Of a stretch of 64,000 bases of DNA, positions 56,324 to 59,655 are shown piece by piece. The notes under the pieces were generated by a model, which searched no databases, had not been told where the DNA came from, and was given only the letters and a program-made list of their open reading frames with translations. Each line of letters starts with the position of its first letter. The stretch's first letter is position 1. The translations under genes were made by a program, and so were the position numbers. Source of the DNA: Acidobacteria bacterium RIFCSPLOWO2_12_FULL_66_21 (GTDB taxonomy: Bacteria > Acidobacteriota > Vicinamibacteria > Vicinamibacterales > 2-12-FULL-66-21); the NCBI GenBank assembly GCA_001767455.1, contig MELC01000072.1, positions 1-64,000 of the forward strand, written 5' to 3'.

Positions 56324-56806
56324 TCAGACGTCACGCGGAAGATGCAGCAACTCGACGCGCGACGATTCGGTGACGTTCGCCATGAAAGGCGCCTTCGTCT
56401 TGCTGAGGATCCGCAGCATCCGAGGTAGCGCCTTTTGAAACACGGCCGCCTGGTCCGCGCCGGTCATCTCCCCGGCGGTCAGTACGAACGCCCGGACTTT
56501 GGAATTGAGCACGGCTCTCAGCTCGATCGGCCGTTTTCGGATGTTCTGATCCTTCGTAATCAAGATCCACTTCGCCGCGCCGACTCCAGGAAGCCAATCG
56601 ACGTCGAGTGCACCCGTCTTGTGGATATCCCGCTGCAGATGAACGATGTGGCCAGCGGCGCGCAGCATGTTCGGAACGTCGTCATGACAAATACGCCAAA
56701 TGTCCCTGACAAATACCATCTCCGTGGGCCCGATCCGTTTGCGCCGGAACAACGGCGCTTGGTAGGCGCTCACGCGCTGAGATGCGTTCGCGACATCCTC
56801 TGTCAC
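56324..56806 (-). CDS. PIN-like (VapC45-type) putative ribonuclease
   Basis: [15 protein letters not shown]...[49 protein letters not shown]; 4-bp overlap with upstream gene. Confidence 0.6.
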
Positions 56807-59655
56807 GACGACCGTACGAACTGGAGAGGTTCTGCTCTCGGAACTGCCAGCCGGCGGTGGGTAAGCGCTCTCAGAATAGCATCAAGCACGATGTCCAGCT
56901 CCTTCGCCACATCCTCAGCAAGGAAGCGCAGCACGAAGTAGCCGTTCTCTTGCAGCAACTGGTCCTTTCGACGGTCGCGGCGATACGCGTCGGGATCCGC
57001 GAGGTGCTGCGCGCCGTCCAACTCCACGGCCACGCGCGCGTCGGCGCACAGCAGATCCACTTCCAGGGCGCCGAGCGCGTCGAATGCGATCGGCAACGTG
57101 ACGTTGAGCCGGAGACGCCCCTTCGTCTCCGTCAGTGTCTCCAATCGCCTGAAGAGGAATGCCTCCGTCGCACTTCGCGCTCGGTCCGCACCATCGGCAT
57201 CGGCGTGAATCGTACGAGTCGCGTGGAGAAACAGGCTTGCCAGCGGCGTGTCCACGCCGTCGCGCACGAGTCGTCGGACGCTCCCCGAGTAATCTCGCTT
57301 CCAGGCCGGATCCGAGGGCAGGATCACGTCCGCGGGCCAGCCTGGGATCGCGCTGGCTGGAAGGACGATCGTGTAGCCGATGGCCTCATACCCGCGACAA
57401 CGCCGGTCGAACATTCGCCCCAGCATCGGGACATCGAGGTCGGCATAGTCGTAGATGCGCACCTCTCGCTTGCCGTCGTACAGCCGATGCAGCCGGCCCG
57501 CGTACTGCGCGATCGTTCCGCGCCAGGAGACCGGGAGAGTCAGAAACAATGTGTCGAGACGCGGATCGTCGAATCCCTCTCCGACGTACTTGCCGGTGGC
57601 GATCACGACCCGTCCCTCGTCAGGAGGGATCGCCGCGAGACGGGCGCCGAGGGCGAGCCGCCGCTTCTTACCCATCCCGGCGCGCAGGACCACGACGTGA
57701 CGGGCACTCGACGCAAGCGCCTGCTCGAGTCGATCGAGGTGATCGTTCCGCTCCGTGAGGATCAGCGGAGAACGCCCGGACCGGACGGCTTCAATGACGT
57801 CATCGCAGATGCGACTCGTGCGCTCTTCATCGTCGATCAGCTCGTGATACAGGGCCTGGAACTCGACCCGCTTATCGGCGTCAGGGCTCCTGGCCGGCTG
57901 GAACGCAGTCGGCTGCACCAGAACCACGTGCGCGAACGGCCGAGCCGCGGCCTGCGCTCGTGGGTTGACGCGATGCCGAACCGGCCCGCACTGCATGAAG
58001 ATGATCGGATGGTGGCCATCCTTGCGTGCGACGGTCGCCGACAATCCGACGACGAACCGGGCCTTGGCTTGCCGCGACACCTGCTCGAAGCTGTGCGCAG
58101 AGAGGTGGTGACACTCGTCGACGATCAGGTGTCCGTAGTCGGCGACGCGATCGTCGACTACTCCCTTGCGAACAAGACTCTGGATTATGCCGACGTCGAG
58201 CACTCCTGTCGGACGGCCTCGGCCGCCGCCGATTCGGCCGATCGTCTTTGCCGGCATTCCGAGGAACGCCGACAGCCGCTCGATCCACTGGTCGAGGAGC
58301 TGACGCCGATGGACGAGCACGAGCGTGTTGACGCCGCGCTCGGCAATCAACCAGGCCGCGATGACTGTCTTGCCGAATGCCGTTGTGGCGGCCAGCACCC
58401 CGGTGTCGTGCGCCAGCATGGCGTCCGCGGCCGCTTTTTGGTCGGGCCGTAGCTGACCCTCGAAAGCCACTGTGAGCGCGCGGCCAGCGTAGCGCTCGTC
58501 TCGAATCGTCGTGCGCACGCCGAGCTCGCTGAGCGTCAGGCGGACGTCCTCCAGACATCCTCGAGGCAGGCCTATGTGCTGGGGATGATCCTCGGCGCAG
58601 GCGATGACACGAGGCTTGTCGTAGGTGGAGACGCGCATCGCCTGCGCCTTGTAGAATTCAGGGTTCTGAAATGCCGCCAGCCGAAGCAGCCGGTTTCGAA
58701 CGCCGGGATGCAGGCCGTCCTTGGTGATGTAGATCTGATTTCCCAGTACCAGCTCCATGGTCTTCGGCAATTCGCCAACGATCGGTGACTCCCTGCGGCG
58801 CCGCGATGGAGGCGCTGTCCACGGCTCATCGTCTCCGTCATCCTGGGGCGGCAAGCGAACACCGAGAACGGGACCGCGGCGTTCGGCCTCCTGAACGACT
58901 GTCTCGACCTGCGCCCGGCCGAGCTTGCGCACGCTTGCGAGGAAGGCCCACTGGTCTGCCCAAGGTTCGAGGTTGTCATCGAGAAAGACACTGTTCGTTT
59001 TGTCCCGTGCCCGCTTCTGCAACGGCAACGCGATCAGGTTGCCGAATCCTCCTTGCGGCATCGTGTCTTGATTCGGAAAGAGACGGTCGTACGAATCCAA
59101 ACCGAGATCCGGCCGCCGTTCCATCGTCTCGGTGAGGGCGTGAGATCCGAGGCGTCGGGCCAGCGCGGCCGGAACGGCCTCCTCGAAGAAGAACCACACG
59201 TGGGCGCCCCGCCCTGAACGCGACCGCTCGAGAGCAGCTGGCAGGTTCAGGCGCCGACAGGTTTCCAGGAATGCCGCCGCGTCCTCCCGCCAGCCGGTCT
59301 TGTCAAAGTCGACGGCGAGGAACAAGCACGTCTCGTCCTGCAGCATCGGATAGACACCGGCCACAAAGGGCTGACCGTTGGCGTCGGAGCCGGTCAGGTG
59401 CCACCGGATGACGTCGTCGGTCACCGGGAGAAATCGACGGTGCGGACATTCGGCGCACTTGATGCGTGGCTTCTCGCAGACTCCACGGACCCATTCATTC
59501 CCGCAGGCAGGCGCATAGCCGGATTTGCCTGTCTTTCGGCTCTCGAAACGACGCGGGTAGACATCCTCGCGACCGCGGAAGAGGGACCGGAACAGACGGA
59601 TCTTTGCATCGGCCGGAGACTGGTGATTGACCGTCGGTCGCACTGCGTGATCCAT
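56803..59655 (-). CDS. TOTE-type AEP primase + SF2 helicase + C-terminal DUF559/Vsr-like nuclease
   Basis: FRGREDVYPRRFESRKTGKSGYAPAC...IKCAECPHRRFLPVTDDVI; AVDFDKTGW; TTAFGKTVIAAWL (Walker A), DECHH (Walker B); VAVELDGAQHLADPDAYRRDRRKDQLLQENGYFVLRF. Confidence 0.85.
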   Translation of the reverse strand: MDHAVRPTVNHQSPADAKIRLFRSLFRGREDVYPRRFESRKTGKSGYAPACGNEWVRGVCEKPRIKCAECPHRRFLPVTDDVIRWHLTGSDANGQPFVAGVYPMLQDETCLFLAVDFDKTGWREDAAAFLETCRRLNLPAALERSRSGRGAHVWFFFEEAVPAALARRLGSHALTETMERRPDLGLDSYDRLFPNQDTMPQGGFGNLIALPLQKRARDKTNSVFLDDNLEPWADQWAFLASVRKLGRAQVETVVQEAERRGPVLGVRLPPQDDGDDEPWTAPPSRRRRESPIVGELPKTMELVLGNQIYITKDGLHPGVRNRLLRLAAFQNPEFYKAQAMRVSTYDKPRVIACAEDHPQHIGLPRGCLEDVRLTLSELGVRTTIRDERYAGRALTVAFEGQLRPDQKAAADAMLAHDTGVLAATTAFGKTVIAAWLIAERGVNTLVLVHRRQLLDQWIERLSAFLGMPAKTIGRIGGGRGRPTGVLDVGIIQSLVRKGVVDDRVADYGHLIVDECHHLSAHSFEQVSRQAKARFVVGLSATVARKDGHHPIIFMQCGPVRHRVNPRAQAAARPFAHVVLVQPTAFQPARSPDADKRVEFQALYHELIDDEERTSRICDDVIEAVRSGRSPLILTERNDHLDRLEQALASSARHVVVLRAGMGKKRRLALGARLAAIPPDEGRVVIATGKYVGEGFDDPRLDTLFLTLPVSWRGTIAQYAGRLHRLYDGKREVRIYDYADLDVPMLGRMFDRRCRGYEAIGYTIVLPASAIPGWPADVILPSDPAWKRDYSGSVRRLVRDGVDTPLASLFLHATRTIHADADGADRARSATEAFLFRRLETLTETKGRLRLNVTLPIAFDALGALEVDLLCADARVAVELDGAQHLADPDAYRRDRRKDQLLQENGYFVLRFLAEDVAKELDIVLDAILRALTHRRLAVPRAEPLQFVRSS

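Follow-up and report, generated by a model that had tools for sequence, protein, structure and literature searches.

A stretch of 64,000 nucleotides from Acidobacteria bacterium RIFCSPLOWO2_12_FULL_66_21, referred to here as the window, contains a large gene whose end overlaps the beginning of a small open reading frame related to PIN-domain toxins. This arrangement raises the question of whether the two genes form a defence module, as was proposed in the original prediction, or whether the large protein acts by itself, and in which process. Both reading frames were recovered as first described, with 950 and 160 residues, on the same strand and sharing the tetranucleotide GTGA. Their positions are collected in Table 1, together with those of the neighbouring toxin-antitoxin (TA) genes.

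Table 1. Coordinates of the features discussed (positions in the window; -, reverse strand).
Feature	Position	Strand	Evidence
Large gene, apparently solitary, 950-aa Prim-Pol / SF2 helicase / DUF559 nuclease protein (AEP-TOTE family)	56803..59655	-	
AEP-TOTE primase-polymerase domain, residues 18-252	58900..59604	-	Pfam PF22548, E 1.4e-99
SF2 helicase core, residues 401-725	57481..58455	-	ResIII, Helicase_C, fold, motifs
DUF559 PD-(D/E)xK/Vsr-like nuclease domain, residues 861-931	56863..57075	-	PF04480, E 2.7e-13
GTGA overlap, TGA stop of the large gene and GTG start of the PIN frame	56803..56806	-	sequence
Orphan PIN_10 (VapC45-like) frame, 160 aa, without HTH-DUF433 antitoxin	56324..56806	-	PF18478, E 2.7e-15
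Degenerate first active-site motif of the PIN frame, VFVRD	56702..56716	-	alignment
VapC-type PIN toxin (PF01850), 36 bp upstream of the large gene	59692..60159	-	
Phd-type antitoxin overlapping vapC	60156..60443	-	PF02604, E 8.2e-9; TIGR01552, 2.3e-9

Pfam profiles recognize in one chain the three domains that had been proposed for the large protein, a primase-polymerase (Prim-Pol), an SF2 helicase and a C-terminal nuclease. Opening, cutting and resynthesis of DNA would be united in a single polypeptide. The AEP-TOTE profile (PF22548) scores 332.9 bits for a cut-off of 27. In the helicase part, ResIII and DEAD match at residues 401-544 (E 3.6e-19 and 1.3e-10, respectively) and Helicase_C is weak (E 0.025, residues 620-725). 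The Prim-Pol domain carries four cysteines of the zinc-binding type (C51, C60, C67 and C70) and the catalytic residues D116, D118 and H152. The helicase motifs are GKT at 428-430 (Walker A), DECH at 513-516, SAT at 539-541 and motif VI at 717-724, and the nuclease core is made of D867, E878, D880 and K897. All these residues are invariant when 76 full-length relatives of 57-84% identity are aligned, which argues for strong purifying selection on the three catalytic centres. Together with the existence of more than 8000 homologues, this invariance indicates a real gene.

Structural comparisons lead to the same domain assignment. The AlphaFold2 model of the large protein has a mean pLDDT of 82 and resembles the Prim-Pol domain of a CAPP protein (7nqe; TM 0.78 by target length). 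CAPP entries 7nqd, 7nqf and 7nqe are the matches of this domain when sequence and structure comparisons are considered together, 7nqd being matched in sequence with an E value of 4.4e-8. The PrimPol profile of PADLOC is also matched (E 9.2e-95). The helicase part is XPB/RadD-like in sequence as well as in fold, its best matches being XPB, including XPB-Bax1 complexes, and RadD.

The homologues listed are of about 950 residues and 79-85% identical to the large protein. The best-named ones come from metagenome-assembled genomes of Vicinamibacterales and other Acidobacteriota, and some relatives bear the NCBI name "TOTE conflict system archaeo-eukaryotic primase domain-containing protein". In the source genome, a 6.48-Mb assembly of 91 contigs, a single full copy is found. 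Within the order, 61 of the 162 genomes searched contain a match, a few of them with similarity to the helicase only, and many copies are relics. For instance, residues 9-200 are directly joined to residues 733-943 in one relic (G202, contig C20), a broken copy lies 1.5 kb behind an intact one in another genome (G434, contig C5), and a further relic occurs on contig C42 of G065. In a tree of 67 full-length proteins, ten label changes are required for eight phyla (the minimum being seven) and two proteobacterial sequences are nested inside acidobacterial ones. Since phylum labels cluster well, transfer would be less extensive than that of many defence genes, a point against a defence role of the protein. 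The gene thus appears to be inherited in a partly coherent manner, accompanied by losses and occasional transfer.

The surroundings of the gene are not conserved. Comparison by blastn of the 10 kb around the large gene with the first related loci collected showed that homology starts and stops within the open reading frame, with neither terminal repeats nor common flanks, so that a mobile element with its own ends was discarded. Clustering of the flanking proteins of 105 loci revealed no conserved partner. From these comparisons, the large gene appears to be solitary, without a dedicated partner gene. The downstream PQQ gene was used for an empty-site comparison. In ten related genomes, the region upstream of its orthologue is occupied by unrelated genes, and the TA genes, the large gene and the PIN frame are absent from it. 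The segment that carries the large gene is therefore considered to be lineage-specific. Besides, a 28-nucleotide inverted repeat (54295-54322 and 54456-54483 of the window; 93% complementary) is located between the ABC-permease and PQQ-propeller genes.

The C-terminal nuclease is not shared by all relatives. A sister group, composed of proteins from Acidobacteriota and from alphaproteobacterial plasmids, matches the large protein only up to residue 768 or so and has no DUF559 domain. In two of its members (L216, 1267-4242, and L217, 1096-4065), which are AEP-TOTE/SF2 proteins, a PLD-type nuclease replaces DUF559 at the C-terminus. Across the family, the nuclease thus appears to be swappable, being DUF559, PLD or none. 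Restriction and defence proteins commonly combine one constant motor with different nucleases, which would be less expected of a repair enzyme. Conflict systems typically show such exchangeability.

Directly upstream of the large gene, the phd and vapC genes form a complete-looking TA operon. Homologues of this VapC elsewhere in the order do not adjoin the large gene, but genes of the TA type are recurrent at this place. Among the immediate neighbours, the commonest Pfam families are AbiEii (7), ParE (5) and DUF5615 (4), whereas housekeeping genes predominate in these loci from the third position onwards. With local profiles, 16 of the 155 adjacent genes were assigned to TA families, against 1 of the 144 distant ones from these loci (Fisher p 2e-4). 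Two matches among the 16 (L026 and L118) appear to be one and the same ParE, so that they are not independent. These rates are approximate because genes were called heuristically and because the sample was composed of the best 80 of 580 matches and of the results of genome searches. All eight upstream toxins found are on the strand of the large gene, several of them at gaps of -53 to +22 bp. They include DUF5615 (L134, with DUF433, and L121), ParE (L123, with ParD, and L041), AbiEii (L039) and a nucleotidyltransferase-like protein (L030). In L133, PIN_3 and a HicB-like antitoxin are encoded upstream. PADLOC matches among the neighbours of the large gene comprise ZorD, JetD, DpdE and mad2. The Phd-VapC pair of the window fits this pattern of TA genes beside the large gene, and the latter tends to travel directly behind interchangeable TA operons, which probably contribute to its maintenance in the genome. 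This adjacency represents a new statistical lead.

Further upstream, a Uma2-family frame and an RHH/ParE-like pair (60514-62282) adjoin Phd-VapC, and a small cluster of TA-type genes therewith surrounds the large gene. The same side of the window contains a pyrimidine-rich 27-mer, three short direct repeats, at 62358-62448, and, at 62663-63661 on the forward strand, a gene for a protein kinase domain that is followed, unusually, by a weakly matching BRCT region at the C-terminus (21.7 bits for a cut-off of 21.3).

Considering these properties, the large protein may be imagined as a self-contained DNA-processing effector made of a single polypeptide, carried behind interchangeable TA operons and providing a restriction-like barrier to foreign DNA, in which the PIN frame would have no part. 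We give this reading about an even chance of being correct. In such a model, deduced from the chemistry of the domains, the helicase would be loaded on foreign DNA that is aberrant or replicating, and would then translocate along it or unwind it. The C-terminal nuclease would nick or cut the DNA so engaged, and the Prim-Pol would synthesize DNA on the exposed single strand. This synthesis could either re-form a duplex that can be cut or fill gaps, so that damage would be contained. The restriction-like outcome and the defence role itself are likewise inferred, and we know of no report that a member of the family protects its host against a phage or a plasmid. A nucleic-acid-targeting role, as first proposed, is plausible for the large protein; as a system of two genes including PIN, the proposal did not withstand the analysis.

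The best surviving alternative would be DNA repair, with the large protein as a one-protein machine for excision or gap repair, where the XPB-like helicase opens the DNA, the nuclease incises it and the Prim-Pol fills the gap. The resemblance of the helicase to XPB and RadD is consistent with this possibility, as is the conservation of every active site, and gap repair is among the activities described for bacterial Prim-Pols (PMC5663958, PMC7442782). However, the patchy presence of the gene in the order, its many broken copies, its TA and defence-type neighbours and the interchange of its nucleases are better explained by a dispensable conflict gene, and the repair function, although conceivable, is considered to be rather unlikely.

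Some relatives without the nuclease have a different genetic context. On plasmids of four genera, Gemmobacter, Paracoccus, Rhizobium and Pukyongiella (L246, L247, L249 and L251), relatives of about 813 residues are found 40-70 bp from three adjacent tyrosine recombinase genes, with which they are convergent. On plasmid pTB1 of Sphingobium yanoikuyae (L241, 4932-9283), the genes for TniB, two hypothetical proteins and TniQ are followed directly, with a 4-bp overlap, by a nuclease-less relative. Another one comes directly after TniQ on plasmid pMl1 of Sinorhizobium meliloti (L242, 5637-9274). It is possible that these TniQ-adjoining relatives are cargo or a target-choice part of a Tn7/Tn5053-like transposon.

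Hence, another possibility would be an accessory of mobile elements, that is a helper for replication, for gap repair after insertion or for target choice, to which a nuclease was later fused. The plasmid relatives with their recombinase trios and those behind TniQ speak for such an origin, as do the 19 loci of viral contigs with an at least partial match and the association of non-CRISPR CAPP-helicase proteins with mobile genetic elements, of which they are typical (PMC8211822). On the other hand, the branch with DUF559 has no conserved recombinase, a Pfam phage integrase was found in only 3 of 144 neighbours, and the blastn comparison described above gave neither repeats nor common flanks. 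For the protein of the window, this explanation is distinctly unlikely.

The recurrence of TA genes also allows a bolder version of the reading as a restriction-like effector. RNAs of TA type guard some CRISPR operons. By analogy, the large gene and its exchangeable upstream TA operon might constitute one functional cassette, where the TA genes would be wired to the nuclease gene, either guarding its expression or, once the nuclease has been overcome, acting as an abortive arm. The slot would be open to any TA family, such as Phd-VapC, DUF433-DUF5615, ParDE or AbiEii. We regard this wiring as speculative and give it little credence.

There remains the PIN frame. As stated initially, it is PIN-like, since the PIN_10 profile scores 56.6 bits on its 160 residues for a cut-off of 26.2. 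However, homology does not begin before residue 47 or so, and the first active-site motif is abnormal. The column of the first catalytic aspartate is occupied by R in the window, whereas D is present in every relative that reaches the site, within a motif (F/Y)hD. Among the relatives reaching this motif, the window PIN is the sole sequence without an in-register first Asp; the N-termini of its nearest relatives (P0122-P0124), annotated from the same downstream start, lie outside the comparison. In the AlphaFold model of the PIN frame, residues 1-40 have low confidence and the first strand is absent. A Foldseek search of the PDB with this model, run without a control, returned meaningless matches only and was left out of account. 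The frame is nevertheless still open and the core residues D68, W71, D86 and E95 are conserved, so that, as far as the alignment can tell, it may retain some residual function.

The genomic context of the PIN_10 family is informative as well. Relatives are matched in 31 of 396 genomes of the phylum, and in at least 28 of the 29 loci examined the PIN_10 gene stands directly behind, and usually overlaps, a gene of about 240 codons for an HTH-DUF433 antitoxin, its true partner. In contrast with these VapBC45-like pairs, to which it is related by its PIN_10 domain, the frame of the window has no antitoxin and a divergent 5′ part. No HTH-DUF433 antitoxin was found in the 64-kb window, and the rest of the genome gave only a 48-residue DUF433 match of 35% identity. 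Since the antitoxin is gone and the active site is damaged, the frame is best read as a remnant, probably that of an inactive toxin that lost its antitoxin and is not a partner of the large protein. It was also envisaged that the PIN gene had been beheaded by the junction, at a sharp breakpoint. This is not proven, and gradual decay is equally possible because the divergent N-terminus, of about the expected length, contains a strand-like VFV stretch.

The neighbourhood survey completes this picture. No PIN_10 gene was observed beside any other sampled DUF559-type relative, 90 of the 105 loci analysed having at least 600 bp downstream. In a sample of about 100 proteins related to the large one, PIN_10 adjacency was seen only in one distant nuclease-less case. 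In genome G077 (L220, 5671-9476), a nuclease-less AEP-TOTE/SF2 gene of 56% identity precedes a full TA pair, made of an HTH-DUF433 antitoxin and an intact PIN_10 toxin. Thus, in spite of this locus and of the same-strand GTGA overlap, which by itself is not enough to make two genes a functional pair, joint action of the primase-helicase-DNase with a PIN RNase, as the original prediction had it, is largely refuted by the survey, by the missing antitoxin and by the out-of-register aspartate, and is very improbable. For the restriction-like effector, the solitude of the gene, the exchangeable nuclease slot and the TA adjacency offer a clean single-gene test from which the PIN frame can be dispensed.

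These features may finally be compared with known systems. The designation "TOTE-type" holds for the primase domain, which in TOTE conflict systems is likewise fused to an SF2 helicase, TOTE standing for TPR, OB, TBP and Effector as expanded in one account (PMC12458937; Aravind et al. 2022 as cited there). It does not hold for the system, because a TBP gene (PF00352) was not detected in the whole genome, archaeal controls being positive, and a TOTE system proper was rejected. A TPR-OB protein was not seen among the window neighbours scanned with Pfam profiles, and the 105 loci gave no conserved neighbour of any kind. To judge from these scans, the solitary large gene would differ in this respect as well. 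A chain uniting an SF2 or other helicase with a PD-(D/E)xK/Vsr-like nuclease at its C-terminus reportedly occurs in the helicase-DUF4011-Vsr defence protein of Gao and colleagues (2020). The same layout is found in YprA-Vsr of ARMADA (PMC12458937). Unlike these Vsr-fused defence helicases, the large protein has a helicase of another family, the XPB/RadD-like one, and a Prim-Pol in addition. In archaeal excision repair by XPB-Bax1, an XPB-type helicase core also works with a nuclease, but the nuclease of the large protein is unrelated and fused in the chain, a Prim-Pol is added, and the gene is patchy and often decayed.

The nearest characterised relatives are the CAPPs, DNA polymerases and primases of CRISPR adaptation with helicase-fused homologues borne by mobile genetic elements; of all the architectures outside CRISPR, that with a helicase is the commonest (Zabrady et al. 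2021, PMC8211822). With the CAPP_A CAPP-Helicase, the large protein shares a Prim-Pol domain of the same family followed by a helicase. It differs from it by its C-terminal DUF559 nuclease and by its context, cas genes and a CRISPR array not being seen nearby, for which reason a role in CRISPR adaptation was set aside. Array-like repeats were not found at 50-64 kb of the window, and Cas1 of the source genome occurs only on contig C86, away from the large gene. There, at positions 234275-235132 (G000:C86:234275-235132), it lies within a 748-residue open frame and is possibly a fusion. The large protein is thus a non-CRISPR CAPP-helicase homologue with a nuclease added. To a family that is large and already named, the present analysis adds its solitude, its swappable nuclease and its adjacency to TA genes.
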